Shown piece by piece: positions 14,508-30,029 of a stretch of 64,000 nucleotides of DNA. Positions within the stretch are counted from its first letter, which is position 1. Each line of letters starts with the position of its first letter. Source of the stretch: Bacillus sp. ISL-45. Lineage in GTDB: Bacteria; Bacillota; Bacilli; Bacillales; Cytobacillaceae. The notes under the pieces were generated by a model. That model was not told the DNA's origin. It made no database searches and was given only the letters and a program-made list of their open reading frames with translations. A program made the translations under genes and the position numbers. The DNA lies in the NCBI RefSeq assembly GCF_018613195.1, contig NZ_JAGGQQ010000009.1, positions 124,001 through 188,000 of the forward strand, given 5' to 3'.

Positions 14508-14797
14508 TGTACAGGGTGTTTTTTGATGAAACGACCGGAGACATTCAAACGATTGTCAATGAAGAATATGTGGCGGAAAACATGAAATCACAAGGATTGT
14601 TAGTGGAATCCTTGCCGACATTGGAACCGGTAGCCGGAAAAGCTGAACACCGATATGTCGATGTGATTGAACGGACATTGAAAGTGAAGTACATTGATCG
14701 TGTTCTTTCTCCAGAAGAAGAATTGGCAAATGTGAAAAAGGAACAGAAGCTCATACAGAAGGCGCTCGATGACTTAATCTTCGGAGGTACATTCTAA
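14507..14797 (+). CDS. Small tail protein with C-terminal helix
   Basis: A 96-residue protein with an N-terminal beta part (YRVFFDETTGDIQTIV) and a C-terminal amphipathic helix (SPEEELANVKKEQKLIQKALDDLI). Proteins like this often precede XkdX-type genes at the end of the tail operon. GAGGAG lies upstream, and it is coupled to both neighbours by one-base stop/start overlaps. Confidence 0.6.
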   Translation: MYRVFFDETTGDIQTIVNEEYVAENMKSQGLLVESLPTLEPVAGKAEHRYVDVIERTLKVKYIDRVLSPEEELANVKKEQKLIQKALDDLIFGGTF

Positions 14798-14934
14798 TGG
14801 CAGCTTACATGGGGCAACGAATAATCGATGGAGTCTATAGCTATGATTATGTAATCTTAAAGCGTCCAGACCTAAAAGAGGGTATCGACGCTTATTTAAT
14901 TTCAGAGGATAGACAGGATTTAATTACACAATAA
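14797..14934 (+). CDS. XkdX-like small phage protein
   Basis: A 45-residue protein. The C-terminal part, LKEGIDAYLISEDRQDLIT, resembles the XkdX family, a short protein at the end of Bacillus phage tail operons whose function is unknown. Its ATG overlaps the previous stop (TAATG), and an intrinsic terminator follows 9 bp later. Confidence 0.65.
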   Translation: MAAYMGQRIIDGVYSYDYVILKRPDLKEGIDAYLISEDRQDLITQ

Positions 14935-14943
14935 GATGCACTC

Positions 14944-14970
14944 GAGAGCTGGCAGCCAGCTCTCTTTCTT
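14944..14970 (+). terminator. Terminator of tail operon
   Basis: Perfect 9-bp stem GAGAGCTGG / CCAGCTCTC with loop CAG, then TTTCTT. Confidence 0.85.
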
Positions 14971-14999
14971 ATGGGTAAATAGAGAGAGGGGGTATCAAA

Positions 15000-15260
15000 T
15001 TGGAGGCGACAGAACAAATGGATATCTGGAAAACATCCGTGCAGAGGGACATAGAGGAGATGAGAGGTGATATTCGCCGTCTTCAGGACAAGCAATTGTT
15101 ACAAGACCAAATTATCCAAAACATCCAAAGTGACCTTAAAGAAATTAAAGAGGATACCAAATGGCTGAAGAGGACAATAACGACAGCTCTAATCTCAGCA
15201 ACAGTAATAGGCGTTATCGGTGGAGTCATTGCCATTGTATTCGAAGTATTTAAAGGATAG
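15000..15260 (+). CDS. XhlA-type haemolysin/holin accessory protein
   Basis: An 86-residue protein: an N-terminal coiled coil (about residues 5-55, DIWKTSVQRDIEEMRGDIRR) and one C-terminal membrane segment (ALISATVIGVIGGVIAIVF). This is the layout of the XhlA family, which works with a holin in PBSX-type lysis. The start is TTG with AGAGGGGG upstream. It opens the lysis module. Confidence 0.85.
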   Translation: MEATEQMDIWKTSVQRDIEEMRGDIRRLQDKQLLQDQIIQNIQSDLKEIKEDTKWLKRTITTALISATVIGVIGGVIAIVFEVFKG

Positions 15261-15362
15261 TCGAGTAATAGTGGAAAAGTATTAATTATCTGGTAAATAA
15301 GTAGTTTCTAAGTACTATATAATGGTATAATTCTTCCACAAAGGTTAATGGGGGAATAGATT

Positions 15363-15557
15363 TTGCCAGAGGCGATGAAGAGGAAAAGGTATATAGTGGT
15401 CGTGGAGGGCAGCAACGAAACCCAAAGTGCAGTCATAATAGCAAGAAATCTTAAAGGGATGTATAGAGAAGTTAACCGGTTATATGGCCATTTACTTAAA
15501 GATGTAAATGGACGGGATATAGGAAAACTTTCTTTTAAAGAAACTGAACTTCAATGA
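15363..15557 (+). CDS. Small basic protein of unknown function
   Basis: A 64-residue protein with TTG start and GGGGGAA upstream. One beta-helix unit is suggested (RYIVVVEGSNETQSAVIIARNLKGMYREVNRLYG). It resembles small phage or plasmid regulators but I recognise no family. It sits alone between two lysis genes and has its own terminator 8 bp after the stop. Confidence 0.5.
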   Translation: MPEAMKRKRYIVVVEGSNETQSAVIIARNLKGMYREVNRLYGHLLKDVNGRDIGKLSFKETELQ

Positions 15558-15565
15558 TAACCAAG

Positions 15566-15590
15566 ACACCCATTTGGGTGTATTTTTTTT
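15566..15590 (+). terminator. Intrinsic terminator
   Basis: Stem ACACCCA / TGGGTGT with a 2-nt central loop, then ATTTTTTTT. It lies just before the holin gene. Confidence 0.85.
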
Positions 15591-15606
15591 GAAAGGGGAA
15601 ATTAAA

Positions 15607-15858
15607 ATGTACGAACAACCGAAAACGTGGAAAGACTGGGCCATCCTATTATCAGGGTGGCTTTCGTTATTGGCTTTAGGCCTGAAGGGAATCTTCAATG
15701 TGGATATCACACCCTTTGCCGGTGATATTGCAAACTTCGTTATCTTAAGCATCTTCATAGGCGTCAATGCCTGGTCTGTGTGGAAGAACACTTATGTTTC
15801 CAGGAATGCGCAGCTGCAGAAAAAAGCACTTATAGCACAAGGAAAGATGAAGAAATAA
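15607..15858 (+). CDS. Phage holin
   Basis: An 83-residue protein with two membrane segments (WAILLSGWLSLLALGLKGIF and FVILSIFIGVNAWSVW) and a basic C-terminal tail (KKALIAQGKMKK), as in class II holins. I chose the ATG at 15607 because GAAAGGGG precedes it. Its position between XhlA and the endolysin supports a role in timed membrane permeabilisation. Confidence 0.82.
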   Translation: MYEQPKTWKDWAILLSGWLSLLALGLKGIFNVDITPFAGDIANFVILSIFIGVNAWSVWKNTYVSRNAQLQKKALIAQGKMKK

Positions 15859-15881
15859 GTCACTCACTTGAGTGGCTTTTT
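15859..15881 (+). terminator. Intrinsic terminator after holin
   Basis: Stem GTCACTCA / TGAGTGGC with a very short loop, then TTTTTG. It abuts the holin stop codon. Confidence 0.7.
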
Positions 15882-15982
15882 GTTTTGCCTGAAAGGAGTT
15901 GATTGGGATGTAAAATTTGGGGCTAAATCATAATATGAACTCATTTAACTCGAATATAAAAATTAACTAGGAGTGGTTTTAA

Positions 15983-16672
15983 ATGGTAAAAGTATTTATT
16001 GATCCAGGTCATGGCGGTACAGATCCAGGTGCAGTAGGAAACGGACTAAGGGAAAAGGATTTGACGCTCCAAATTGCAACGAGAGTCAAAAACATCCTAA
16101 TTCAGGAATACGACAACGTTTCTGTGTTGATGAGTCGTACTGGTGATCAAACAGTTTCATTAACTGAAAGAACGAACGCAGCCAACGCTTGGGGTGCTAA
16201 CTTCCTTCTTTCCATCCACATTAATGCTGGTGGAGGAACAGGTTACGAAGATTTCATTTATCCTGGTGTAGGAACACCGACAACTACTTACCAAAGTAAT
16301 ATTCATGCAGCAGTCCTGGCCCTTGTTGATTTCTATGATCGTGGAAAGAAAACAGCAAACTTCCACATGCTACGTGAATCAAACATGCCAGCTCTTTTAA
16401 CCGAGAATGGTTTCATTGACAATTCGAACGATGCAGCTAAACTTAAATCCAGTTCGTTCATTGAAAATATTGCTCGTGGTCATGCGAATGGGATTGTTAA
16501 AAGTTTCAATCTTCCTAAGAAGGCGACGGCAGTTTATCACACAGTTGTTTCTGGTGATACAGTTTATTCTCTAAGCAGGACATACGGCAGTACTACCCAA
16601 CAAATCAAGGATTGGAACAACCTAGATGATAATTACACTATTTATCCAGGCCAAGTTCTTCGAGTTAAGTAA
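15983..16672 (+). CDS. Endolysin: N-acetylmuramoyl-L-alanine amidase with LysM
   Basis: A 229-residue protein. Residues 1 to about 175 form an Amidase_3 domain with zinc and catalytic residues His10 (DPGHGG), Glu24, His79 (SIHINA) and Glu141 (LLTENGF). A C-terminal LysM (about 184-229; YHTVVSGDTVYSLSRTYG) binds peptidoglycan. There is no signal peptide, so it needs the holin for export. It cuts the bond between muramic acid and L-alanine during host lysis. The start has AGGAG upstream. Confidence 0.96.
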   Translation: MVKVFIDPGHGGTDPGAVGNGLREKDLTLQIATRVKNILIQEYDNVSVLMSRTGDQTVSLTERTNAANAWGANFLLSIHINAGGGTGYEDFIYPGVGTPTTTYQSNIHAAVLALVDFYDRGKKTANFHMLRESNMPALLTENGFIDNSNDAAKLKSSSFIENIARGHANGIVKSFNLPKKATAVYHTVVSGDTVYSLSRTYGSTTQQIKDWNNLDDNYTIYPGQVLRVK

Positions 16673-16694
16673 AATGGCACAGCAGAAAGACTTA

Positions 16695-16720
16695 AAGCCC
16701 TTCTACATATAGAAGGGCTT
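16695..16720. terminator. Bidirectional terminator between endolysin and reverse-strand gene
   Basis: Perfect 11-bp stem AAGCCCTTCTA / TAGAAGGGCTT with loop CATA. It lies between convergent genes and can serve both. Confidence 0.85.
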
Positions 16721-16732
16721 GATTTTCTTCTT

Positions 16733-17221
16733 TTAATATCCGGTTATGCTCTCTTTCCCTTTAACTTTATCCAACAGCTTTAACAAACCCACGAATCCTC
16801 TAATCGTAAATAAAGTGAAATTAACACTCACAAAAGTATGGAAAGGTGACCATTTATTCCATTTAAATAACTTTGTGTTTTTCTCCATAAACCATTGGCC
16901 ATAACTCATTGGTATACTAAAGATCAAGCTTTTTAATAAAATTCGCAAGAGATTATCATTGTATGAAATCCTCACCCAGATAACACTTAAAATTGGGAAA
17001 AACAATATGTCATAAAGAATATTCGTCCTAAAAACTTTAGGAAAAGGTCTAACTGGATATTCCACTCTCTTTGTTCCTACTACATAAGCATCAACAAGAG
17101 TAGCAAGGACTCCTTTTGAAAAAAATATTACCAAATTCTCTCTCATTTTCTTACCCTTAAATAAAAATGGCAAAGAAATAAAACACAAAGACACGAGTAA
17201 TCTTAGCAGTTTTTTCTCCAT
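16733..17221 (-). CDS. Multipass membrane protein, CBO0543-like
   Basis: A 162-residue protein with about four membrane segments and an end-to-end hydrophobic layout typical of the CBO0543 family seen in Bacillus and Clostridium; function is unknown. It runs against the lysis genes inside the prophage and is A+T rich, consistent with an accessory (moron) gene. GGGTG precedes the ATG. Confidence 0.65.
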   Translation of the reverse strand: MEKKLLRLLVSLCFISLPFLFKGKKMRENLVIFFSKGVLATLVDAYVVGTKRVEYPVRPFPKVFRTNILYDILFFPILSVIWVRISYNDNLLRILLKSLIFSIPMSYGQWFMEKNTKLFKWNKWSPFHTFVSVNFTLFTIRGFVGLLKLLDKVKGKESITGY

Positions 17222-17318
17222 AAAAACACCCTTCTAATGTGTTCTAAACTGACCTTATTAAAATTACCTAAATTTAGGGACATTATTCCTTTGAGAAACT
17301 TTGTAAAGTAAATAAATA

Positions 17319-17349
17319 AAAGTCCTTATCATTTGAGAAGGGCTTTTTA
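17319..17349. terminator. Terminator between reverse-strand accessory genes
   Basis: Stem AAAAGTCCTT / AAGGGCTTTTT with U-runs on both strands. It fits the end of the VOC gene read on the minus strand. Confidence 0.65.
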
Positions 17350-17388
17350 AAATTGTACTTAATGGATTAACACACATCCATTAAAAAG

Positions 17389-17742
17389 TTAACACTTACA
17401 AACCATCATATGATTACCGTAAGGGTCTTTAAAATTAAACCAGTGTTCGTGCTCAATTTCCGTAATTAATTCGACATTCTTACCCTTCATATATTCATAG
17501 GCTTCTTCAATATTGTTAGTATTAAAATGAAAAGCTGGTGTTTTGAAAGTGTTTTTTTCTGAAAAAATCTTGCTATCTAAAACAATACCAGTTCCATTTG
17601 TAGTTGGCAAAACGAATAAATGGCCAAACAGGATCTCACCTTGCACATTTAATCCTAAAATATCACAATACCAATCCCGAGCTTCTTCAATATTCCCCGC
17701 AGGTATAAAAACTGTTCCAATTTGAGTCAAAATAGGGTTCAT
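17389..17742 (-). CDS. VOC (glyoxalase/bleomycin resistance) family protein
   Basis: A 117-residue protein with the paired beta-alpha-beta-beta-beta layout of the vicinal oxygen chelate fold: AGNIEEARDWYCDILGL in the first half and a C-terminal NFKDPYGNHMMVC. His and Glu at strand ends could bind metal. The substrate is unknown. GGAGG precedes the ATG, and it lies among reverse-strand prophage accessory genes. Confidence 0.85.
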   Translation of the reverse strand: MNPILTQIGTVFIPAGNIEEARDWYCDILGLNVQGEILFGHLFVLPTTNGTGIVLDSKIFSEKNTFKTPAFHFNTNNIEEAYEYMKGKNVELITEIEHEHWFNFKDPYGNHMMVCKC

Positions 17743-17815
17743 TACATACCTCCAAAAATAAATTTTTACTAAGTATTATTCGAGTTAGTTTAAAATTCCC
17801 CTTTATTTTTCATGA

Positions 17816-17850
17816 GTAAAAGTCCTTCTCAATCTAGAGGGACTTTTATC
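17816..17850. terminator. Terminator hairpin
   Basis: Stem AAAAGTCC / GGGACTTTT with an internal loop, flanked by A/T runs. It lies between two minus-strand genes. Confidence 0.65.
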
Positions 17851-17866
17851 AGTTTTATGAAATTCT

Positions 17867-18226
17867 TTAGATAGCTCCCATACCTTTAAGAATAGTTTTT
17901 GCATCAGCATTCAAGTACGCAAGGCTATCCTTTCTTATTAAAAGGTTTGGATTACCCTTAAGAAGCATCTTGATTCCTCTAACATCAAACTTATTAGCAT
18001 ATGTATTAACTGCATTAAGAATTGCTAAGTCCTTTCTGGTCAATGGCTCTCCGTTACCAGCTTGGAGTTCCAGAAGGAAATTTAAAAGTTCTCTTGCATT
18101 CTTATTCAACAGATTCTTATGTTCATTTAATATTTTAATGTTTTCTTCGATAAAAACCCTTGCTGTTGAATATTCCATCTCATCTACATTTTTGTTAATC
18201 TTTGCTGTTAGAACTTCTAAATTCAA
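17867..18226 (-). CDS. Hypothetical helical protein in prophage
   Basis: About 119 residues, mostly helical and without cysteine (EYSTARVFIEENIKILNEHKNLLNKNARELLNFLLELQ). I know of no family. The TTG at 18226 is 9 nt from AGGGGG; the first ATG three codons upstream directly abuts that signal, so TTG is preferred. It precedes the small Xre genes on the same strand. Confidence 0.55.
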   Translation of the reverse strand: MNLEVLTAKINKNVDEMEYSTARVFIEENIKILNEHKNLLNKNARELLNFLLELQAGNGEPLTRKDLAILNAVNTYANKFDVRGIKMLLKGNPNLLIRKDSLAYLNADAKTILKGMGAI

Positions 18227-18324
18227 TGCATACATCCCCCTGTGAGTATTTACATTGTTATATCGGTTAAAATTATAAATTATAAATTATAAAGATGAAA
18301 ATTTCTTCATTGGAGAGAATGGCT

Positions 18325-18522
18325 TTACTTAATTTCTTGAGGATCTAATTCATAGAAATCAATTAACTTATTTAGAGTTGATTGACGAGGGTTACCTTTG
18401 TCATTCTCTATGTTGCTTAGAGTCCTGGTTGTCATATTAAGTTTTTCGCAAACTGACTCTTGAGACATATTTCTTTTACATCGTTCTAATCTTAACTGAG
18501 TACCTATGCTTTCATTATTCAT
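18325..18522 (-). CDS. Xre-type HTH regulator (65 aa)
   Basis: A protein that is almost only a helix-turn-helix: QLRLERCKRNMSQESVCEKLNMTTRTLSNIENDKGNP. It lacks any effector domain. TTAGGAGG precedes the ATG. It is a paralogue of the gene just upstream of it on the minus strand (similar RMER/LERCKRNLSQE..C text), suggesting recent duplication. Confidence 0.85.
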   Translation of the reverse strand: MNNESIGTQLRLERCKRNMSQESVCEKLNMTTRTLSNIENDKGNPRQSTLNKLIDFYELDPQEIK

Positions 18523-18586
18523 CTAATAACCTCCTAATTGGATTTATACAAACATATTCCTCCTAATAAAAAAAATAAAACCCTTC

Positions 18587-18787
18587 TCATTGGAGATGGG
18601 TTAGTTTATATCCTAATTCATAATAATCGATCAACCTTTTAATGGTCTTTCCATTTACACTCTTATCGTTTTCAATCTTACTTAACGTTTTTATATTCAT
18701 TTGAATAGCTTCACAAACCTGTTCTTGTGAAAGGTTTCTTTTGAACCTTTCCATCCTTAAAATCGTTCCTAAGCTTTCTCGGTACAC
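18587..18787 (-). CDS. Xre-type HTH regulator (66 aa), paralogue
   Basis: A bare HTH protein (TILRMERFKRNLSQEQVCEAIQMNIKTLSKIENDKS). AGGTG precedes the GTG at 18787 by 6 nt, so I prefer it to the GTG at 18796 within that signal. Its similarity to the preceding HTH gene suggests gene duplication inside the prophage. Confidence 0.78.
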   Translation of the reverse strand: MYRESLGTILRMERFKRNLSQEQVCEAIQMNIKTLSKIENDKSVNGKTIKRLIDYYELGYKLTHLQ

Positions 18788-18803
18788 ATAAATCACCTGA
18801 CAT

Positions 18804-19010
18804 TTATGAAGGATTTTCCTTTACTCTGTCAGTTATATCGACACCATCAGCTTCAACTTTTAGTACCTCCCCAACATCCATTTCCTTTTTTATCTCGTTG
18901 ATCCAGTCAGCTGCAATCTTTTCAGGTGTCCTTCTTCTTTTTTGAAAAGACCCTTTACGTTGCACTCTTATTCCCCTGGAAAGAAAAGTTAATGTAATCG
19001 TAAAATTCAT
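18804..19010 (-). CDS. Small prophage protein next to repressor
   Basis: A 68-residue protein starting at the ATG at 19010, with GGAG 8 nt upstream. It has an N-terminal beta segment with basic patch (TLTFLSRGIRVQRKGSFQKRRRTPE) and an acidic end. Similar small proteins adjoin Xre repressors in Bacillus prophages, but no function is known. Confidence 0.6.
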   Translation of the reverse strand: MNFTITLTFLSRGIRVQRKGSFQKRRRTPEKIAADWINEIKKEMDVGEVLKVEADGVDITDRVKENPS

Positions 19011-19051
19011 TATAATCACTCCAAACACCATTTTACCAAGCGCTTGGGAAT

Positions 19052-19279
19052 TTACATATCCCAAAAATCATCACTTTTGATATTAGGATCTATTTCTCGA
19101 ATTGCCTTTAATATTTTTTTCATTGTCGGTAGTGTAGGTTCATGTTCACCATTAGCACTGCATAGTTCACTAACCGTTGACCGACTCACTTCAGATTTAT
19201 TTGCCAACCATTGCTGAGAAATCCCTCTGTTATCCAACCAGCGCCCCAACCTTGAACGCTTCTTTCCTAATCCAAACAT
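19052..19279 (-). CDS. Phage repressor-like Xre HTH protein
   Basis: A 75-residue protein with an N-terminal HTH (RLGRWLDNRGISQQWLANKSEVSRSTVSELC). It is read away from the plus-strand gene at 19421, and three related sites fill the space between the two, so it may repress both directions. CGGAGGTG precedes the ATG. Confidence 0.8.
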   Translation of the reverse strand: MFGLGKKRSRLGRWLDNRGISQQWLANKSEVSRSTVSELCSANGEHEPTLPTMKKILKAIREIDPNIKSDDFWDM

Positions 19280-19305
19280 TTGAATACACCTCCGTTAACC
19301 ATTCA

Positions 19306-19378
19306 TGTCCAATTATCCGAAGTTTTATACAAAAATGCATGATATATCGGAATATTGGACAAGCAGGGTCCAATATCC
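19306..19378. promoter_or_regulatory. Triple operator-like sites between divergent prophage genes
   Basis: TGTCCAATTATCCGA (19306-19320) recurs inverted as TCGGAATATTGGACA (19347-19361), with a third, partial copy GTCCAATATCC (19368-19378). This spacing around a divergent promoter is what a phage repressor operator set looks like. The binding protein is inferred to be the Xre protein read from 19279. Confidence 0.6.
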
Positions 19379-19420
19379 TTTATCAAGGACGTCACAAGAC
19401 GTCTAAAAGGAGGCAATGAA

Positions 19421-19843
19421 ATGTATAGACCTACGGTACGTTATGCAGATAGTTATCAACAATATGTGGATAAAATGTTTCAATCAACACATCTGGACCG
19501 AAATCAAATCATAAGGGCAGCATTATTCACAGCTGCATACTCGGAAGAATTTCTTAAGCTAATGAGCCAAAATAAAAAGGGCGACGTCCCTCTTCCCTCC
19601 CCTTTATGGGAGCTGGATAATACTCCGTTATGGAGGGAGCAATCACCTAAAATAACAGGAGAGGGGAGGGAAGTCAATGATCATAATGACAGAAAGGGAG
19701 AAGTTGAGGATTATAGCCGAGTTGTTAAATCAGGAGCTAACATCACCAGTATCGAGGGACGTCAGCACCAGGTCCAGAGATCAGAAAGGCCGGTTCCAGA
19801 AAAAATCCAGACGTCAGGAGAAATCAAAATACGGATCGGTTAG
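19421..19843 (+). CDS. Hypothetical prophage/plasmid-type protein
   Basis: A 140-residue protein with strong AAAAGGAGG 7 nt before the ATG. The first about 85 residues look conserved (YRPTVRYADSYQQYVDKMF...DRNQIIRAALFTAAYS), possibly a ribbon-helix-helix or small HTH. The last about 55 overlap the next gene in another frame and look unconstrained. That C-terminal tail may be accidental, or the gene may have lost its original end. Confidence 0.55.
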   Translation: MYRPTVRYADSYQQYVDKMFQSTHLDRNQIIRAALFTAAYSEEFLKLMSQNKKGDVPLPSPLWELDNTPLWREQSPKITGEGREVNDHNDRKGEVEDYSRVVKSGANITSIEGRQHQVQRSERPVPEKIQTSGEIKIRIG

Positions 19844-19973
19844 GGAGATTAAATTGAAAAAGGTGAGGGGAAGCTATGGGTCCTACATCGTGAAAACAAG
19901 GATTTTGTCTGAAGAGGACTTAGCTTATCTATATGGTATTCTTGGTGTCATTTTTCTGGCTATTGTTATTTGA
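19677..19973 (+). CDS. Basic prophage protein with C-terminal membrane segment
   Basis: A 98-residue protein: an N-terminal helix (TEREKLRIIAELLNQEL), a lysine/arginine-rich middle, and one C-terminal membrane segment (YLYGILGVIFLAIVI). The ATG at 19677 has AGGGGAGG upstream; the ATG at 19686 is also possible. It overlaps the preceding gene by 167 bp in another frame, which is unusual. It is the last phage gene before the attachment junction. Confidence 0.5.
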   Translation: MIIMTEREKLRIIAELLNQELTSPVSRDVSTRSRDQKGRFQKKSRRQEKSKYGSVREIKLKKVRGSYGSYIVKTRILSEEDLAYLYGILGVIFLAIVI

Positions 19974-20012
19974 ATTCAACATTAGCTTTTTAATATTATT
20001 GGCTCCCCAGAA
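19974..20012. other. Putative prophage right attachment junction (attR)
   Basis: Phage coding ends at 19973, and a truncated host UPF0145/YbjQ-like reading frame begins immediately after. The family pattern (SGEAIMGAN) breaks off after SGE near 20003, so the crossover core probably lies within this stretch. The left end is outside the window, so no direct-repeat core could be confirmed. Confidence 0.6.
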
Positions 20013-20074
20013 ACTATCCCTAGATATTTCTCGATTTCCCTGTCCTGCAAAGTCGAAGTTGTAGTTACGATCAT
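19982..20074 (-). pseudogene. 5' stub of UPF0145/YbjQ-like gene cut by the prophage
   Basis: Thirty codons with a proper GGAGG and ATG: MIVTTTSTLQ...YLGIVSGE, then divergence and a stop. UPF0145 (YbjQ) proteins are about 105 residues and begin this way. The remainder is missing, replaced by prophage sequence, so the gene is the probable integration target. Confidence 0.75.
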
Positions 20075-20169
20075 ATTAATTCCTCCTCCAATTCTTGTTA
20101 TTCTGTTAAAAAACTGTGAATAACTACTTATACGATTCCCTCTGGAAAAAGGTTTCAATAAAAAAAGAA

Positions 20170-20189
20170 CCCGGCTATTATTTGCCAGG
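20170..20189 (-). terminator. Terminator of small reverse-strand gene
   Basis: On the minus strand CCTGGC and GCCGGG pair around an 8-nt loop, followed by TTCTTTTTTTATT. Confidence 0.7.
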
Positions 20190-20201
20190 TCCAGCCATTA
20201 T

Positions 20202-20366
20202 TTATGCTTCGTCTTCCTCTACACGGTTTTTGAACGCCTCCTGGACGACTAGGAATTCCTCATCTTCCTGCGCCTCTGTTTCAGGACGCTTTGGTTTTAA
20301 GGCGCCTGAGGGCAGGTCTCCTGGATGGCCTTTTTTCTTGTGGTTGAACCCTTTGCCTCTGCTCAT
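20202..20366 (-). CDS. Small hydrophilic protein (54 aa), YfhD-like layout
   Basis: Basic N-terminus (SRGKGFNHKKKGHPGD) and acidic C-terminus (EAQEDEEFLVVQEAFKNRVEEDEA), like the small cytosolic or spore-associated proteins of bacilli. AAAGGAGGG lies 8 nt before the ATG, and a terminator follows. Function is unknown. It is read away from the peroxiredoxin gene. Confidence 0.65.
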   Translation of the reverse strand: MSRGKGFNHKKKGHPGDLPSGALKPKRPETEAQEDEEFLVVQEAFKNRVEEDEA

Positions 20367-20441
20367 TCATGAACCCTCCTTTCTTGTTCAATCTAGTTTT
20401 TCCTGTTGGAACCTGAAATATAAGAAATCAGCTGCATATGA

Positions 20442-20455
20442 TTGTATAGATACAA
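20442..20455. promoter_or_regulatory. Operator-like dyad upstream of peroxiredoxin
   Basis: TTGTAT-AG-ATACAA is a perfect 6-bp dyad overlapping the likely -10 region of the peroxiredoxin promoter. It does not match the PerR consensus. The regulator is unknown. Confidence 0.35.
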
Positions 20456-20480
20456 ATTTAAATAAAGGAGGGCGGCTGCA

Positions 20481-21092
20481 ATGGATGAAAAATTGTACGC
20501 TGAGGATTTGGTTGAATGTCCGACTGTTTTTTGTGCGAACCGGGATGACCAGGCCCCGCTTTTTACAGCTGATGCATTGATCAATGGTGACATAAAGAAG
20601 ATTAACCTTGAGGATTATCGGGGAAAGTGGGTCATCTTATTTTTCTACCCAAGTAATTTTACCTTTGTTTGACCGACAGAGCTGGCGGCGGTCGCCGCTG
20701 TATACCCTTATATAAAAGCGCTGGGTGCTGAATTGCTGGCAATCAGCACTGACAGTGTTTATTCACACAAGGTTTTTAAAGAGACTTCTCCTTCTTTGAA
20801 AAATGTTACGTATCCAATGGTAAGCGACAGGACGCAGGTAATCAGCCGCGCATATAGAATCCTGGATGAAACAACAGGGGCCTGCTTCAGGACTTCAGTT
20901 TTCATCGACCCCGGTGGCATTATCAGAGCGAAGCTTACTTATCCCGGAAATGTCGGCCGCAACCTTCCTGAGCACGTAAGGATGCTGCAGGCTTTCGAGT
21001 ATGCAAAACAAACAGGAAAAGGTGTGCCGGCGAACTGGGTGCCGGGCCAGCAAGGAGTCAGTACAGACCCATCAAATATAGGAAATATTTAA
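20481..21092 (+). CDS. Peroxiredoxin with in-frame TGA at the catalytic position (candidate selenoprotein)
   Basis: One AhpC/TSA-type peroxiredoxin of 203 residues is split by a TGA at 20670-20672. The text reads [19 protein letters not shown]; in the family the residue here is the peroxidatic Cys (FTFVCPTEL), so TGA stands exactly at residue 64 in its place. The frame stays open and conserved after it ([29 protein letters not shown]). A hairpin with a GG-initial loop starts soon after the TGA. The usual resolving-Cys motif (VCPA.W) is VPANW here. The N-terminus carries an extra C13/C18 pair. Reading: selenocysteine at residue 64. The alternative is a nonsense mutation that inactivated the gene. 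AAAGGAGGG precedes the ATG. Confidence 0.72.
20673..20701 (+). promoter_or_regulatory. SECIS-like hairpin after the TGA
   Basis: GCGGC (20685-20689) pairs with GCCGC (20694-20698) around loop GGUC, with G20684-U20699 extending the stem. The loop starts 17 nt after the TGA, and its first two bases are G. Bacterial SECIS elements need a loop G among the first two positions, about 16-37 nt from the TGA, so the fit is good. Confidence 0.6.
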
Positions 21093-21126
21093 TGCGTGCA
21101 GGTCCTGATAATCAGGGCCTGTTTTT

Positions 21127-21175
21127 ATGTCAAGCTCCAGCGCTTGTCGGGACTGACCAAGGCGATACGTTATTC
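21127..21175. repeat. Short copy of a dispersed intergenic element
   Basis: Contains CAAGCTCCAGCGCTTGTCGG then GACTGACCAAGGCG, matching parts of the longer element at 59,705-59,950 and the piece at 63,590. It lies downstream of the peroxiredoxin gene. Confidence 0.55.
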
Positions 21176-21282
21176 TTGTTTGTCTGTGACCAGCATCACA
21201 ATTGATGGATAAAAATGTCACAAATTCTCAACAAAAATCTTCGATATCACTCACAAAGTTTTTTTAAAATAGAATTGAGATT

Positions 21283-21300
21283 ATGTTAAAAAATTCACAA
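21283..21300. promoter_or_regulatory. Rex-like operator before cydAB
   Basis: ATGTTAAAAAATTCACAA matches the Rex palindrome TTGTGAAAAAATTCACAA at 16 of 18 positions. It lies 25 bp before the cydA start. In B. subtilis Rex represses cyd genes when NADH is low, so an NADH-responsive control is likely. Confidence 0.55.
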
Positions 21301-21324
21301 ACAATAAATAAGGAGGTATCAAAG

Positions 21325-22677
21325 ATGGATGAGGTCCTGATATTAAGCCGGATCCAGTTTGCTGTGACTGTTTTTTATCATTTTTTATTTGTCCCATTAA
21401 CGATTGGTTTAGTCATTCTCGTTGCCATCATGGAGACAAAGTATGCACGCACCCTGGACCAGACATATAAGCGAATGGCGGATTATTGGGGAAAACTGTT
21501 CGCGATCAACTTTGTGCTTGGTGTGATTACCGGCATTACGATGGAATTTCAGTTTGGCACGAACTGGTCAGAATACTCGAAGTATATGGGTGATATTTTC
21601 GGGTCGCCGCTCGCGATTGAAGCTCTAGTCGCCTTTTTCCTTGAATCTACCTTCATGGGCATCTGGCTGTTCGGAAAGGATAAGTTTACACCAAAACTGC
21701 GGGCATTTTCGATCTGGATGGTCGCTCTCGGTACGAATATTTCCGCTCTCTGGATCATTACTGCCAATGGCTTCATGCAAAACCCGGTCGGCTATGTCCT
21801 TAACAATGGCCGAGTCGAATTGAACAGCTTCCGGGAGCTCGTCACTAATCCTTATGCCTGGTATATGTTTGTACACACTGTTGTAAGTGCCTATATTGTG
21901 GGGGCGTTTTTCATGATGGCCATCAGTGCTTACCACCTGCTCAGGAAAAACGAAACGGCATTTTATAAAAAGTCATTCAAGTACGGTCTTGCCATGGCCT
22001 TGTTTTCTGCGACTCTCACACCAATCATCGGGCACCAGTCCGGTGTTTTTGCTGCTAAAATGCAGCCGGCAAAAGGAGCGGCTATGGAGGCAGTCTGGGA
22101 GACACAAAAGGACATGCCATTCCATCTTATCCAGATTCCCGATCAGGAAAACGAGCGCAATGCTTTTGAGGCAATCAGCATTCCGAAATTGGGCAGCTTC
22201 TTCTACACCAACTCCTTTGATGGGGAAGTCACAGGTTTGAAAGACATTCCCAAGGATGAACGGCCTAACGTGGAACTGGTCTTTTATGCGTTCAGGGTAA
22301 TGGTCGCTCTAGGAGTCTTTTTCCTGGCTGTTTCCTGGTACGGCTTGTACCTTTATCGGAAAAACAAACTGGAGAACTCACCAAAATACTTGAAGCTGGT
22401 CCTATATTCTGTACTGCTGCCGTATCTGGCGATTAATGCCGGCTGGATGGTAGCAGAGGCGGGACGACAGCCATGGGTTGTGTACGGATTGATGAAGACA
22501 TCTGAGGGTGTGTCGCCAATCGCGTTGTCCCAGGTGATCTTCTCCTTGGCAGCTCTCGTCATTTTTTACACAGTTTTATTGATAGCAGATGTCTATTTGA
22601 TCATCAAATATGCGAAAAAAGGTCCGGAATCAGAGGTTAAATATGGCCTTGAAGGAGGCGTGAAACATGTCTCATGA
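21325..22677 (+). CDS. cydA: Cytochrome bd-type quinol oxidase subunit I
   Basis: A 450-residue membrane protein with the bd-I fold: an N-terminal SRIQFAVTVFYHFLFVPLTIGL with heme-ligand His19, then conserved GVITGITMEFQFGTNW and NGFMQNPVGY. The Q loop is short, as in Gram-positive forms. It oxidises quinol and reduces oxygen with high affinity. Start ATG at 21325 has AAGGAGG upstream. Partner subunit II follows, and no cydCD assembly transporter is present nearby. A YthA-type paralogue is possible. Confidence 0.93.
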   Translation: MDEVLILSRIQFAVTVFYHFLFVPLTIGLVILVAIMETKYARTLDQTYKRMADYWGKLFAINFVLGVITGITMEFQFGTNWSEYSKYMGDIFGSPLAIEALVAFFLESTFMGIWLFGKDKFTPKLRAFSIWMVALGTNISALWIITANGFMQNPVGYVLNNGRVELNSFRELVTNPYAWYMFVHTVVSAYIVGAFFMMAISAYHLLRKNETAFYKKSFKYGLAMALFSATLTPIIGHQSGVFAAKMQPAKGAAMEAVWETQKDMPFHLIQIPDQENERNAFEAISIPKLGSFFYTNSFDGEVTGLKDIPKDERPNVELVFYAFRVMVALGVFFLAVSWYGLYLYRKNKLENSPKYLKLVLYSVLLPYLAINAGWMVAEAGRQPWVVYGLMKTSEGVSPIALSQVIFSLAALVIFYTVLLIADVYLIIKYAKKGPESEVKYGLEGGVKHVS

Positions 22678-23695
22678 TACACTTGCAATCATTTGGTTCG
22701 GTTTGTGGGGATTGATTTGGACGGTTTATTTTATCCTCGATGGATACACCCTTGGGACCGGAATGCTGTTCCCGTTCATCGCTAAAAACCGCCAGGAGCG
22801 TAACCAGCTCCAGGAGGCGGTCGGACCTTTCTGGGGCGGGAATGAGGTCTGGCTGATCACAGCTGGAGGAGCGACATTTGCGGCCTTCCCGGCTGTCTAC
22901 GCGGACATGTTCAGCTTTTTGTATACGCCGTTGTTCCTGGTGCTGATTGCTTTGTTCATTCGGGCAATCGGACTTGAATTCATGCATAAGGACGACAACC
23001 CACTATGGCAGGCAGGGTGTAAATGGGGCTTCTTCACCGGCAGCTTTTTGATCGCCTTCTTATTCGGCGTCACCTTCGCCAATCTGTACCGAGGATTATT
23101 GATCGGTGCCAATGGCTATGAAGGCAATTTGTTCAGCTTGTTGAATGGTTATGGCATTTTGGGAGGATTGCTGTTTGTCTCATTGTTCCTTCTGTCTGGT
23201 TCATTATGGATTCAGTTGAAGACAGCAGGGCAAACCGCAGTCCGAGCATACAAAATATCACGGATAATGGCTGGCGTGGCTCCGGCGATGCTGTCGCTTT
23301 TTTTTCTGGCGACAGTGAACAGGACGCCATTGCTGGATAATTACTCACAGCAACCGATCCTCTGGACTGTGCCGGTAATCGCACTGGCTGCGATGCTCGC
23401 GGCAGTCTACTTTATTTTTAAAAAGAAAATCGGCTATGCCTTTACCGCTGTCTGCTTGACGATTTTCACAAAAATGGCCTTCGGCTTCGTAGGGATGTTC
23501 CCGAACATGCTGCCATCAAGAATAGACAATGCCTACAGCGTGACACTTTTTGATGCTGCAGGCAGCAAGCTCAACCTGACCATCATGTTCGTCGTTGCAG
23601 TCATTTTCGTGCCAATTATCATTGCCTACCAGTCCTGGAGCTACACACTTTTCAAGGATAAAATATTAAAGGAAAGCGCAAAGGGATATCAATAA
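22667..23695 (+). CDS. cydB: Cytochrome bd-type quinol oxidase subunit II
   Basis: A 342-residue protein with about eight membrane segments. The N-terminal IIWFGLWGLIWTVYFILDGYTLGTGMLFPF and the central GPFWGGNEVWLITAGGATFAAFP match CydB. It overlaps cydA by 11 bp, so translation is coupled. It supports heme and quinone handling by subunit I. A strong terminator follows directly. Confidence 0.93.
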   Translation: MSHDTLAIIWFGLWGLIWTVYFILDGYTLGTGMLFPFIAKNRQERNQLQEAVGPFWGGNEVWLITAGGATFAAFPAVYADMFSFLYTPLFLVLIALFIRAIGLEFMHKDDNPLWQAGCKWGFFTGSFLIAFLFGVTFANLYRGLLIGANGYEGNLFSLLNGYGILGGLLFVSLFLLSGSLWIQLKTAGQTAVRAYKISRIMAGVAPAMLSLFFLATVNRTPLLDNYSQQPILWTVPVIALAAMLAAVYFIFKKKIGYAFTAVCLTIFTKMAFGFVGMFPNMLPSRIDNAYSVTLFDAAGSKLNLTIMFVVAVIFVPIIIAYQSWSYTLFKDKILKESAKGYQ

Positions 23696-23697
23696 GG

Positions 23698-23727
23698 AAA
23701 GGCGTCTGGGTGACCAGACGCCTTTGA
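23698..23727 (+). terminator. Terminator of cydAB
   Basis: Perfect 12-bp stem AAAGGCGTCTGG / CCAGACGCCTTT with loop GTGA, then GATT. Confidence 0.9.
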
Positions 23728-23798
23728 TTATGTGGGGAATTGCTTTAATGCTTGTCCAGCAGGTAGAGTTTCAAGACGGCAAATAAGAAGTGGATAAT

Positions 23799-24150
23799 AG
23801 ACATTTCCGGAGCATCGAAATCTTAAAATGTCTATTGTAAAGGATTTAATAGACATTTCCAGCAAAGAGCAGCAGCAAAATGTCTAATAAAAGGGGTTTA
23901 ATAGGCATTTCCAGCAAAGAGCAGCCTCAAAATGTCTAATAAAAGGGGTTTAATGGACATTTCAGGCAAGGAGCAGCAGTAAAATGTCTAATAAAAGAGG
24001 TTTAATGGACATTACCGGCAAGAAGCAGCAACATAATGTCTAATAAAAGAGGTTTACTAGACATTTCCAGCAAGGAGCAGCAGCAAAATGTCTAATAAAA
24101 GAGGTTTAATGGACATTTCAGGTAAGGAAAGGCTACGAAATGTCTATTAA
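23799..24150. repeat. Array of seven 52-bp hairpin units
   Basis: Units start at 23799, 23851, 23903, 23955, 24007, 24059 and 24111: exactly 52 bp apart. Each has an [A/G]GACATTT arm and an AAATGTCT arm around an about 20-nt loop rich in AGCAG, so each can fold as a hairpin. The last arm ends near 24,150. The stretch from 23,728 to 24,194 has no gene. Confidence 0.9.
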
Positions 24151-24194
24151 CTATTCTCCCTAGGAGTAATCCAAGCTGATCTGTTTAAAAAATA

Positions 24195-24222
24195 GAGACC
24201 TACCAGCACAATGATAGGTCTC
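24195..24222. terminator. Terminator of symporter gene
   Basis: Stem GAGACCTA / TAGGTCTC with a 12-nt loop; it lies just beyond the stop of the reverse-strand symporter. Confidence 0.7.
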
Positions 24223-24232
24223 AAAATACAAA

Positions 24233-26047
24233 TCAATATTCTGTTGTGGTCGGTTTAAGCTTTGTTCTATCCAATGTTTTTTCCTTGTTTGCTTTAACCG
24301 GATTTTCTGTCAAGAGATAACCGGCATAGGCTTTGTTCCATTTTTTGATTGCCAGATAAGATAGTAAGACTGTAATCGCAAGTATCCCAGTGATGATTGG
24401 CCAAAATGCTGAAGAAACATAACCTCCATCGTACGCTAATCCAATTGGCGAGAAGACGACGTAGATGATGGCAACGAGAGCCAGCAGGACAACAGATACA
24501 GGCAACGAGTACTTCCATGGTACCATGTCGACTGCTGCCTCGGAGTGGAAAGTATATGGCTTTGCTGTTGGTTTCCACATTCCGATGGCGATCATAATTG
24601 CCACTTCGACTACAAACAAGATTGCGTAAATGTGGATAAAATGAATCGGTACAGCAAAATCGAATAGATGCTGCGTACCCCAAACGAGCATATAGTAAGT
24701 GATCACGTGGAAGATGATCACGACTTTAGCTGCAAGTGCAGGTACTCGTTTTGTGAAAATCCCGACAAGCAAGATGACGATGATTGGAATATTGAAAAAG
24801 CCTGTGAACCTTCTGATTAAATCCCATAATCCTTCGGGTGCGTTCATCAGCATCGGGGCGATACATAATGATACGACAGCCAGCAGTGTCCCAGCTATTT
24901 TACTTACCGATATTATTTTGCGGTCATCTGCTTCAGGGTTAAAGCGTGCTTTATAAATATCAAGCGCGAACATCGTTGCTGCGCTATTCAATAATGAGTT
25001 GAATGAGCTTAGTACTGCGCCAAGCAGGACAGCCAGAAAGAAGCCGGACATCCAGGTTGGCAATACATCGGAAATCAACGCTGGATAAGCCAAGTCAACT
25101 GACTTCAGCCCATCTCCGTACATATGGAAGGCAATGACGCCGGGAATCATCATCGTCAGCGGCACTAGCAGCTTATAGAATCCGGAAATCAAAACGCCTT
25201 TTTGGCCTTCAGCCAGGTTTTTCGCTCCAAGTGTACGCTGGATGACATATTGGTTTGAAGCCCAGTAGAATAAGTTAGCGAAAATCATCCCGGTAAAAAT
25301 GGTGCCGAATGGAACGGAATCTTGCTTTGTCCCAATTGAATTCATTTTTTCAGGGTTCGTAGTAGCGATTTGTTTCATCCCGTCCCCAATATTGCCATCG
25401 CCTAGTGCGATCAGGCCCAGTATTGGGACAAGAAGGCCAATGATAATCAAGCCAATCCCATTCAATGTATCCGAAATCGCAACAGCTTTCAGTCCGCCGA
25501 AAATCGCATAGATGGCCCCGATGATTCCGATGAGCCAGATGACAATCCAGACAGATGCTTCATACGAGATGCCGAACAGCTCTGGAAAGTTGAAAAGCTG
25601 CAATACGGCAAGTGCACCTGAATAGAGCATCGAAGGCGCGGTAACAAGAATGTATCCAAGCATAAAAAGAAGAACCGTATACTGTCTGACACCTTCATCA
25701 TATCGTTTGCTCAAAAATTCAGGCAGCGTTGTGAAATTGCCGCGAAGATACTTTGGCAGCAAATAGATGGCCATGATGATGATGGCAAAAGCAGCTGTCA
25801 CTTCCCATGCCATGTTGGAAAGATTGGTACGGTAGGCTTGTCCATTCAGGCCTACCAACTGTTCTGCCGAAAGGTTGGTGAGCAGGAGAGAACCTGCAAT
25901 AAAGCCGCCGGTCAACCCGCGGCCGGCTAGAAAATATCCAGCTGAATCGCTGACTTCTCCTTTTGTCTTTACATACGAATACCACGCGACGAGCCCCATG
26001 AAAAAGGCTGCTGAAATAAGAGTAAATCCTATACCCCCAAAAATCAT
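24233..26047 (-). CDS. Sodium:solute symporter (SSS family, SGLT/YidK-like)
   Basis: A 604-residue transporter with about 14 membrane segments. The N-terminal GYFLAGRGLTGGFIAGSLLLTNLSAEQLVGLNGQAY and the later GLKAVAISDTLNGIGL match the SSS family's sodium-coupled sugar and organic-solute branch (SglT/YidK-like). The substrate is not deducible. GGGGTG precedes the ATG. The gene is monocistronic between terminators. Confidence 0.9.
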   Translation of the reverse strand: MIFGGIGFTLISAAFFMGLVAWYSYVKTKGEVSDSAGYFLAGRGLTGGFIAGSLLLTNLSAEQLVGLNGQAYRTNLSNMAWEVTAAFAIIIMAIYLLPKYLRGNFTTLPEFLSKRYDEGVRQYTVLLFMLGYILVTAPSMLYSGALAVLQLFNFPELFGISYEASVWIVIWLIGIIGAIYAIFGGLKAVAISDTLNGIGLIIIGLLVPILGLIALGDGNIGDGMKQIATTNPEKMNSIGTKQDSVPFGTIFTGMIFANLFYWASNQYVIQRTLGAKNLAEGQKGVLISGFYKLLVPLTMMIPGVIAFHMYGDGLKSVDLAYPALISDVLPTWMSGFFLAVLLGAVLSSFNSLLNSAATMFALDIYKARFNPEADDRKIISVSKIAGTLLAVVSLCIAPMLMNAPEGLWDLIRRFTGFFNIPIIVILLVGIFTKRVPALAAKVVIIFHVITYYMLVWGTQHLFDFAVPIHFIHIYAILFVVEVAIMIAIGMWKPTAKPYTFHSEAAVDMVPWKYSLPVSVVLLALVAIIYVVFSPIGLAYDGGYVSSAFWPIITGILAITVLLSYLAIKKWNKAYAGYLLTENPVKANKEKTLDRTKLKPTTTEY

Positions 26048-26226
26048 CTTGTCGACACCCCTTGATGTGTAATTATTTTACATACTAAATAACCTGCTTG
26101 CTAACTCTTTAAACCTTTAGCGTGATAAAATCATCTCTTTTACCAAATATTTAAATTAGAAAATACTGGATTAAAATAATATAATAATAGGAGAAATACT
26201 AAAAATGGACGACTGGAGTGGTTCAG

Positions 26227-26601
26227 ATGGATTTTTCAATGGTGGTGTCGGAGGATCGAATCAAGCGTGCATACAAAGATGGAGAGTTTGAAAATTTGCC
26301 TGGCTACGGAAAGCCTTTGAATCTGGAAGATATGTCAGCCGTGCCAGAGGACCTGAGAATGGCCTACAAGATGCTGAAAAATGCAGGTTTTTCTCCGGAA
26401 GAACAGAGGCTCAGGCAGGAAGTGATGTCCATCGAGGATTTGATACGCAACTGTGAAAATCCTGATGAGAAAAACAGACTGAACCAGGAACTTAGCCAAA
26501 AATTGCTAAGATACAATAAAATAATGTCCAGCAGGGGAGCTAAAACAAATTCCTATCTATTTAAAAATTACGAACGGAAAATTGAAAAGAAGCTGTTATA
26601 A
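26227..26601 (+). CDS. DUF1992 (DnaJ-C28-like) protein
   Basis: A 124-residue protein with the DUF1992 pattern EDRIKRAYKDGEFENLPGYGKPLNLED and MAYKMLKNAGFSPEE. The function in bacteria is unknown; the family has a J-domain-associated relative in eukaryotes. The ATG at 26227 has GGAG 8 nt upstream, so the GTG at 26218 is not preferred. It is followed by a terminator. Confidence 0.88.
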   Translation: MDFSMVVSEDRIKRAYKDGEFENLPGYGKPLNLEDMSAVPEDLRMAYKMLKNAGFSPEEQRLRQEVMSIEDLIRNCENPDEKNRLNQELSQKLLRYNKIMSSRGAKTNSYLFKNYERKIEKKLL

Positions 26602-26605
26602 AATA

Positions 26606-26645
26606 AAGGGCCAGGCGGAGAAAACTCCAGCCTGGCCCTTCTGTT
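26606..26645. terminator. Bidirectional terminator
   Basis: Perfect 11-bp stem AAGGGCCAGGC / GCCTGGCCCTT between convergent genes. Confidence 0.85.
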
Positions 26646-26676
26646 ATTAAGATGTTTCAATCAACTACGGATTTGC

Positions 26677-28158
26677 TTACGCTCCGAGTGTTTTGATTTT
26701 TTCAGCAGCTGCTGCTGTTTGGCTGACGTATGCTGCGATTGTCTCATTATCGTCATTCAATGTTTCAATCGTTGCGTTCATTTCTTCCAGGCCTGCTGTT
26801 GCCTGCTCAATGATGGCCGCCAGCTCACGTGTTGAGGCTTCAACACCGCCTGTCTGATTTTTAACATCACTGACAGTCAATTCGAATTGGCTGAATTGGT
26901 TCGTCAGTTCACGAAGGGTGCTGCTGACTTCCGTGAAGAAACCAGAAACCTCTCCGACTGCGGAACGGCTCTCTGCCAGCTTTTCACTGCTGTCGTTCAT
27001 TTTCTCCAGAGCTGCTGAGTTTGTTTCATTAACAGAAGTAAGGTTCTCGGTAATTTGGATTGCTGTTTCTTTCGTCATTTCCGCAAGCTTGCGTATCTCA
27101 TTGGCAACAACTGAGAAGCCTTTGCCTGCCTCACCGGCGCGTGCAGCTTCAATCGAGGCATTGAGGGCAAGAAGATTTGTTTGCTCTGTGATGTTGCGGA
27201 TGTTGACGATGAACCCGTTCGTTTCTTCAATCTTCTTCGTGAGCATGGAGAATGTCTGGCTGAGTTCGGAAATTGAAGCAGCCAGCTCCTTCATGTCGCC
27301 CTGGAGCTCGGTGAGTTTAACGGAGCCGCTCTCGGATGCTTTTGCAGCCTGCAAAGTATTGTCAGAGAGCAGGACGGACATATCGGACATTTCATCCATT
27401 CTTTGCTTTGTCAGTTCTGCATTTTCGGAAATTTGGTTAATCTGTTCAGTCTGAACCTGGCTTCCGGCAGAAATTTCATTTACAGCGATTTTCATTTCTG
27501 TTTGCGAAGACAGATGGGTCTGGATTTGTCCATTTATTTTACCGAGACTCTCCGTCACGACGAGCAGCTCACCATGCAGCAGGGCACTATGCTGCTCTTT
27601 GCGGACTTTTTCATTTTCAGATTCCGCAAGAAAAGCTTCCAGTGATTTAAAGGCATTTCCATTTAGACGGATCAAGACGAACAGCACTGCGCCAAGCAAA
27701 ATATAGCAAAGGAGAATCGCTGTGAATGTGCTGCCTAAAAAGTCCTGGTTTTCTGTGGCCAGCAACGTGTTCAATACGACTCCCACCAGCCCGAGGGTGT
27801 ATCCGGTAACAAAGATCTTTATTTCAAAATGGATGGCCGAAAAGACCGCCAGGAATAGCAGGACGAGCAAAAATCCCCCATTGCCTCCGAACATTCCGAT
27901 ATAAAAGTAATGATGGATGAAGATTGCCGCAAAAGCAGCATAAGGGAACAAGGACTCCTTCTTAAGCCATAGCTGGAATATCAGGAAAAACAGTACAAAA
28001 AATGTTAATTCGCTTACATAAACCATCGTTTTCAAAATCGGTTCTTTTTCAATGAGGGTGTATGCAGATGTCGCAATCAAGGATACCGAATAAGTGCTGA
28101 GCATCAAGATGTTTTTCTTTCTCGTATCCTGCCTGCGGAGATTTTGAATAGCCTCCAC
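26677..28158 (-). CDS. Methyl-accepting chemotaxis protein with seven-TM N-terminus
   Basis: A 493-residue protein. Residues 1 to about 185 hold 5-6 hydrophobic segments but no extracellular ligand domain. The rest is a cytoplasmic receptor with the conserved hairpin tip [25 protein letters not shown]. It signals to CheA/CheW. With few or no external residues, sensing may be of membrane or energetic state. GTG start with AAGGAGG. It lies next to motAB but in the opposite direction. Confidence 0.93.
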
Positions 28159-28359
28159 GTAAAATCCTCCTTAGATGTTCTTAGTTCTTACTTATACTAT
28201 ATCGGCATAAGAAATCTGAATCTTTATTGTTCATGAAAAATTATTTTTACGGGCCATCACTTAAGATTTTTTAAAATATGTCGAAATAAAAAGAGATATT
28301 TATGACTGTTGGAAGACCTAAAGACAGAAATAGAAGTAAAGCAGACAGGGGAGTCGTAC

Positions 28360-29911: not shown

Positions 29912-29921
29912 TAAGATCAAG

Positions 29922-29957
29922 AACCGCTGCCATGTTAGTTGGCGGCGGTTTTTATTT
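29922..29957 (+). terminator. Terminator of motAB
   Basis: Stem AACCGCTGCC / GGCGGCGGTT with a 9-nt loop, then TTTATTTT. Confidence 0.85.
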
Positions 29958-30029
29958 TACAAAAGGTATTTTCATAAATTTGGTTATTTGCTATGATTTA
30001 GGAATCTGAAATTACGAGGTAAACCAAAA

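Follow-up and report, generated by a model that had tools for sequence, protein, structure and literature searches.

A peroxiredoxin gene of Bacillus sp. ISL-45 with TGA at the peroxidatic codon, very probably encoding a selenoprotein of the AhpC/Prx1 fold

The 64,000-nt stretch of Bacillus sp. ISL-45 DNA analysed here (hereafter the window) carries at 20481-21092 a gene for an AhpC/Prx1-type peroxiredoxin in which an in-frame TGA is very probably read as selenocysteine (Sec). We consider it highly probable that this gene encodes a functional selenoprotein, that is, a one-Sec peroxiredoxin of the AhpC/Prx1 fold whose Sec64 would be inserted by means of a selenocysteine insertion sequence (SECIS) and would most likely be reset by an external thiol. 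What the computations established is the reading frame, the conservation of the TGA, selection on the SECIS, a complete Sec machinery in the host, the predicted fold and the lack of a resolving Cys.

The frame contains a single internal TGA, at codon 64. Its product matches PF00578 (AhpC/TSA) with an E-value of 1.5e-35, over the Pfam cut-off, and together with the predicted fold this assigns it to the AhpC/TSA (Prx1/AhpC) fold. The TGA aligns with the peroxidatic Cys of the family, where the best-matching solved thioredoxin peroxidase reads FTFVCPTE, and thus occupies a redox-active position, as in bacterial selenoproteins. A first-pass annotation, made from the DNA letters without database searches, had described an AhpC/TSA frame interrupted once, at the peroxidatic residue 64, and continuing open and family-like downstream. 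The frame, the Pfam match and the alignment all bear out the former point, and conservation past the TGA in 99 homologues the latter.

Homologues (E 1e-40 or better) were collected from 193 genomes of the host's family, using a query that had Cys at residue 64 and was thereby biased towards Cys homologues. They were found in 96 of the 193 genomes, in 99 copies, and every one of the 99 has TGA at codon 64 in an otherwise open frame, and not Cys with stops scattered elsewhere. The second stop listed for seven of them is the terminal one, their proteins ending 126-134 residues past Sec (not 140). Among 397 genomes of the order (E 1e-50, at most eight candidates scored per genome) there were 57 matches, 54 with TGA and three without (in G369, G291 and G215). 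Among 398 genomes of the phylum (at most seven candidates per genome) the best 45 rows all had TGA; rows without it start at E 6.6e-50, with further TGA rows among them. In a scan of public genomes, TGA was present in 80 of 80 named loci, these being the best 80 of 163 relatives, down to 56% identity. The DNA taken by itself shows a stop, and translation table 11 lists beyond it just an open reading frame (ORF) of 119 residues from an inner TTG, as would be seen if the peroxiredoxin gene were decaying and the TGA a normal stop, or if the TGA were a sequencing error. The recurrence of the same TGA in all 99 open-framed homologues and all 80 named loci makes this explanation highly improbable, and the constrained, co-varying synonymous sites 3′ of the TGA (see below) argue against it as well.

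Bacillus sp. ISL-41, Mesobacillus boroniphilus and M. selenatarsenatis are among the named relatives with 94-99% identity, so that the host is most likely a Mesobacillus. Further named carriers belong to Cytobacillus, Neobacillus, Robertmurraya, Alkalibacillus, Salipaludibacillus, Schinkia, Ammoniphilus and Alicyclobacillus. Deeper TGA members come from genomes of the same phylum outside the class. In a wider set of loci a usable match was obtained in 147 of 152, the five others being further PF00578 loci of the host genome itself (L002, L004, L005, L007 and L008). Copies 72-89% identical also occur in records titled Chryseobacterium, Pseudomonas, Paenibacillus and Sporosarcina (L138, L145, L149 and L156). 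By their peroxiredoxin gene these look like Bacillaceae, and some of the record titles may be wrong.

The terminal stop of the gene is itself TGA in 19 of the 99 copies, and therefore UGA is not generally reassigned. Beyond the open frame, nothing speaks for a reading of UGA as some other amino acid (e.g. Trp or Cys) through a general code change or a suppressor tRNA. The 19 gene ends argue against it, as do the tRNA-Sec and the SECIS, which account for UGA decoding, and the fact that the sole non-TGA copy found in the clade has Cys and lies in a genome without selA. The probability of such a reading is close to nil.

Shortly after the TGA, the RNA can form a hairpin with a GGUC loop. The first-pass annotation had the stem-loop begin 17 nt past the TGA; this is the distance to the loop, whereas the stem starts at 11 nt. 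A 2026 review (PMC13188914) outlines a bacterial SECIS (bSECIS) model with a loop of 3-9 nt, an upper stem of 4-16 bp, a spacing of 16-37 nt, G in the first two positions of the loop, mostly paired ends of the loop (N1 and N2), and a minimum free energy at or below -7.5. The window hairpin agrees with this model, as had been claimed, in having a 4-nt loop, 6 bp and a 17-nt spacing, with a minimum free energy between -11.1 and -10.0 kcal/mol, the 16-mer giving -10.0. The hairpin also appears when 59 nt of the single sequence are folded, a check that had been suggested, but the stability of this fold is not above that of shuffled sequences (z 0.28; 110 of 200 shuffles as good). Since a single-sequence fold alone proves nothing, stability was dropped as proof, and the support for the SECIS rests on comparison. 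A scan of window positions 15001-30000 with Rfam gave no match at the gathering score.

The comparative evidence is as follows (numbering with the T of TGA as 1, so that stem positions 15-20 pair with 25-30 and the loop is 21-24). Pair 18-27, both sides of which are third codon positions, is GC in 51, AU in 32 and GU in 9 of 92 distinct family copies, with no mismatch. When the variable third codon positions of conserved residues are paired in 96 copies, it ranks first of 1431 pairs by normalised mutual information (0.65 vs 0.35 for the second). The loop codons, Ala70 and Val71, are GCG and GTC, respectively, in 91 of the 92 copies each; at the conserved Ala124, Ala184, Val98 and Val109 all four codons are in use. 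In the wider clade (153 distinct copies) the loop is GGUC in 129, AGUU in 18 and CGUG in 6, where grouping by index put one locus, L258, with the PrxU-like set, although its very long branch joins the window clade in the tree. Positions 22-23 are GU throughout, 21 and 24 are always paired and change on both sides (G-C, A-U or C-G), and pair 18-27 is AU in 80, GC in 57, GU in 15 and AA in one. The AGUU loop requires seven changes on a tree that includes the PrxU clade, itself with AGUU copies, and at least four of these are forced by well-supported branches.

The host genome (4.6 Mb, 27 contigs, completeness 99.84) encodes the complete set expected of a selenoprotein-producing bacterium, which the first-pass annotation had proposed to look for: a tRNA-Sec with anticodon UCA (58.3 bits vs a gathering score of 47), SelA (560 bits), SelB (366 bits) and SelD (395 bits), the three proteins all over their family cut-offs. 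The selD gene (L130, 4765-5901, + strand) has an in-frame TGA of its own (TKAGUGCK), and selA adjoins it on the same contig in the opposite direction. SelA is present in 172 of the 193 family genomes, including all 96 carriers of the peroxiredoxin gene, and none of the 21 genomes lacking selA in this sample has the gene (Fisher p 2.8e-7, uncorrected for kinship, 13 of the 21 being of one genus). Together with the TGA in 99 of 99 copies and the co-varying SECIS, the complete machinery supports the earlier suggestion that the gene would encode a selenoprotein. Elsewhere in the host genome (G000, contig C12, L129, 1465-1986, - strand), a Prx-like, lipoprotein-like protein has a UxxC motif (FTGVGUDFC), and its TGA is followed by a hairpin with GGUC in the loop. 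It is a probable second selenoprotein of this genome besides SelD.

A used Sec codon, but not a nonsense mutation, predicts that a genome without selA could carry a Cys copy without a SECIS, and such a copy was found. L233, in genome G369, is the sole Cys homologue found inside the clade; it has TGT at the Sec site, and its loop codons GCA ATG leave no SECIS loop. No selA match was obtained in G369, whose estimated completeness is 100; G459 and G555, of the same family (f26), keep the TGA and have selA. In an IQ-TREE phylogeny of 105 rows, L233 lies within the Sec clade beside a TGA copy from another family (G509), with support 97/86. The Sec/Cys label changes twice on this tree, the root of which is not settled as long branches meet in the Cys group. 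The simplest reading starts from a lineage lacking the machinery, in which Sec would have reverted to Cys; the SECIS would have decayed afterwards.

Thr61, the TGA at codon 64, Thr66, Glu67, His96, Arg137, Arg160 and Trp186 are kept in all 99 family copies. The last six residues lie past the UGA, and such conservation implies that the full-length product is the selected one. This bears on the idea that the UGA is a regulated stop, mostly terminating, with Sec insertion minor or dependent on selenium, so that the gene would act as a selenium-sensing switch. Bacterial Sec insertion competes with termination, and the gene is solitary and followed by a terminator-like hairpin, both of which would suit such a switch; given the conserved downstream protein, we think it very unlikely.

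The column of the AhpC resolving Cys is V182 in the window protein and is Cys in none of the 99 family copies, nor in any of 142 Sec rows from the other set of loci, where the residue is V, T, I, M, L or A (columns were mapped with MAFFT, and some genomes occur in both sets). The same column is Cys in three of three AhpC-type Cys copies, and L233 likewise lacks the AhpC resolving Cys. The protein therefore lacks the C-terminal resolving Cys of a typical 2-Cys peroxiredoxin. Nor is there a second invariant Cys, as in 1-Cys types: of the 99 copies, 74 have Cys18, 38 have Cys13, and 19 have no Cys besides Sec (with start codons as chosen). The frequency of Cys18 leaves room for a rival mechanism, in which Cys18 (or Cys13) would act as an atypical resolving Cys and form a selenenylsulfide with Sec64, giving a two-chalcogen peroxiredoxin in part of the clade. 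The N-terminal stretch, modelled at lower confidence with a mean pLDDT (predicted local distance difference test) of 63 for residues 11-20, could move. The 25 copies without Cys18 and the 19 with no other Cys speak against it, and we regard this main rival as unlikely.

We thus favour a one-Sec mechanism, in which Sec insertion itself, the peroxidase activity and the reductant are what we infer. SelB with the UCA-anticodon Sec-tRNA would bind the hairpin and direct Sec to residue 64. Its selenolate, positioned by Thr61 and Arg137, would then attack the peroxide and become a selenenic acid, which most likely would be reset by an external thiol (bacillithiol, bacilliredoxin or thioredoxin) and not by a C-terminal resolving Cys. 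External reduction appears most likely because no second Cys is invariant. The presence of bshC in the host genome (595.6 bits) suggests that the host makes bacillithiol, and we would guess at it as a candidate reductant.

Several observations fit this account less well. Besides the unexceptional stability of the single-sequence fold, pair 18-27 is A-A in one of the 153 wider-clade copies, and a few of them have no pair at the base of the stem (15-30). Of the 99 family copies, only 73 have the Pro57 that the usual PxxxTxxC motif calls for. Furthermore, 76 family genomes have selA but no copy at the E 1e-40 threshold. Finally, L233 branches apart from the TGA copies that G459 and G555, of the same family, carry; its history may include horizontal transfer between families.

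Table 1. Features of the Sec peroxiredoxin locus in the window.
Feature	Position	Strand	Details
Sec-containing peroxiredoxin gene	20481..21092	+	203 residues and TAA stop; translated with TGA = U
In-frame TGA, codon 64, predicted Sec at peroxidatic position	20670..20672	+	TGA in 99/99 family homologues
Putative SECIS hairpin: GGCGGC stem / GGUC loop (20690-20693) / GCCGCU stem	20684..20699	+	stem 20684-20689 / 20694-20699; fold, co-variation, bSECIS model
Ribosome-binding site AGGAGG	20466..20471	+	9 nt 5′ of ATG
Terminator-like hairpin	21098..21122	+	3′ of gene; 2 in region vs 1.2 expected in shuffles, weak alone

A Shine-Dalgarno match of 4-6 nt precedes the gene in 91 of the 99 homologues, before starts that were picked partly by that match. 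Judging from the 3′ terminator-like hairpin, the transcript is probably single-gene; a similar hairpin with a T-run follows the gene in many of 21 genus copies read by eye. Upstream, GCATATGATTGTAT lies at 20434-20447 (+ strand), about 48 nt before the start, and of 97 distinct upstream regions, 61 have a GCATA element in the interval from -75 to -25, against a shuffled mean of 5.3, with starts chosen by ourselves. A sporulation or other promoter was considered, and no sigma factor could be assigned. The genes at 21283-23695, 3′ of the peroxiredoxin gene, are presumably cytochrome bd genes. Counting ORFs of at least 100 codons within about 1.5 kb, 21 of the 99 homologous loci, among them that of the window (L030), have the first of these genes downstream; other groups have other neighbours. 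In view of this limited distribution and the terminator-like hairpin between, a role in an operon with these genes was rejected, and we propose no functional link.

On the other side, a small divergent ORF of 54 aa (MSRGKGFNHKKKGHPGDLPSG...) at 20202-20366 (- strand) is possibly a real gene. At 19994-20164 (- strand) lies the first part of a gene, which we take to be ybjQ-like. The gene breaks off at 19994; relatives such as L031 have a longer version, the remainder of which is absent from the window. ORFs that look phage-like by eye lie to the left of 19994 (region 13500-19973), and a prophage may have inserted into the ybjQ-like gene, with its other end outside the window. About 5 kb downstream, the gene at 26218-26601 (+ strand) is by eye DUF1992-like, as we assume. 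A similar ORF is close downstream in 36 of the 99 related loci, a hint of an older gene order.

The host's family of Bacillus relatives consists mostly of aerobic spore-formers. A predicted Sec peroxidase in 96 of 193 of its genomes, always with Sec there, bears on the view, put forward in a 2006 survey (PMC1794560) and already weakened by a 2016 survey (PMC5029168), that Sec use is linked to low oxygen. Moreover, the clade offers a natural experiment on Sec-Cys exchange and a natural mutational scan of the SECIS loop. Standard annotation may miscall the gene as a pseudogene or as fragments.

With regard to known systems, the first-pass annotation had likened the gene to PrxU, whose type is that of Eubacterium acidaminophilum, reportedly a Sec-containing, thioredoxin-dependent peroxiredoxin (said to be from Sohling et al. 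2001). The likeness holds for the kind of protein but not for membership. Both belong to the AhpC/TSA family with a TxxU active site and Sec encoded by an in-frame TGA, and the PrxU-clade copies compared also have no Cys at the AhpC resolving column. However, the window protein scores 167.7 bits against the NCBIfam PrxU model (NF040737), with a cut-off of 270, and the tree separates the PrxU clade (20 Sec rows) from the window clade (81 Sec rows), so that PrxU was ruled out as its identity. All 37 window-clade members scanned match the model, the best at E 8.7e-54 (about 183 bits by inference), and a deep non-Bacilli member has 170.8 bits; three PrxU-clade copies reach 331, 346 and 391 bits (E 4.6e-99 to 1.9e-117). 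Ten residues before Sec, there is Cys in 20 of 20 PrxU-clade copies, whereas in the window clade 98 of the 99 family copies have Phe there, as do 120 of 121 others, not counting L258. Both clades are represented, by one copy each, in genome G293. In PrxU-clade loci among L259-L273 the loop columns are partly CAC-ATA or AGT-ATA, and their SECIS may lie in another register. As for the SECIS itself, the window stem is short and unbroken compared with the E. coli fdhF type, which we take to have a bulged U near the loop, without counterpart here.

AhpC proper (TIGR03137, with the solved Salmonella AhpC 1n8j and human Prx2-4) has a peroxidatic Cys where the window protein would have Sec, and the VCPAKW of the three AhpC-type copies corresponds to VPANW in the window protein, which scores 154.5 bits against the TIGR03137 model (cut-off 272). 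It is conceivable, if on balance doubtful, that there is a Bacillota-wide, Sec-only peroxiredoxin subfamily apart from PrxU, in which one Sec replaces both Cys of AhpC and is reset directly by bacillithiol or bacilliredoxin. This would give Gram-positive bacteria a counterpart of glutathione peroxidase, one that is frequent among Bacillus relatives and that automatic annotation would easily overlook on account of the TGA.

Prx (TxxU) is a known selenoprotein family (PMC1794560, PMC5029168, PMC9312934 and PMC13188914), of the same broad family and motif as the window protein. The 2006 survey gives three selenoproteins for all Bacillales (PMC1794560), the 2016 one 91 Prx genes in 78 organisms (PMC5029168), and Sulfobacillus thermotolerans grown on ore is reported to up-regulate a Sec peroxiredoxin that goes by the name of PrxU (PMC7409299). 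The survey passages on Prx do not name this Bacilli clade, which may be counted in the supplementary tables; nor is it named in the open-access literature searched, though it may already be published, and no curated name for the subfamily was found. The kind of protein, a Sec peroxiredoxin, is known, and the new part is the subfamily, its missing second thiol and the reversal from Sec to Cys.
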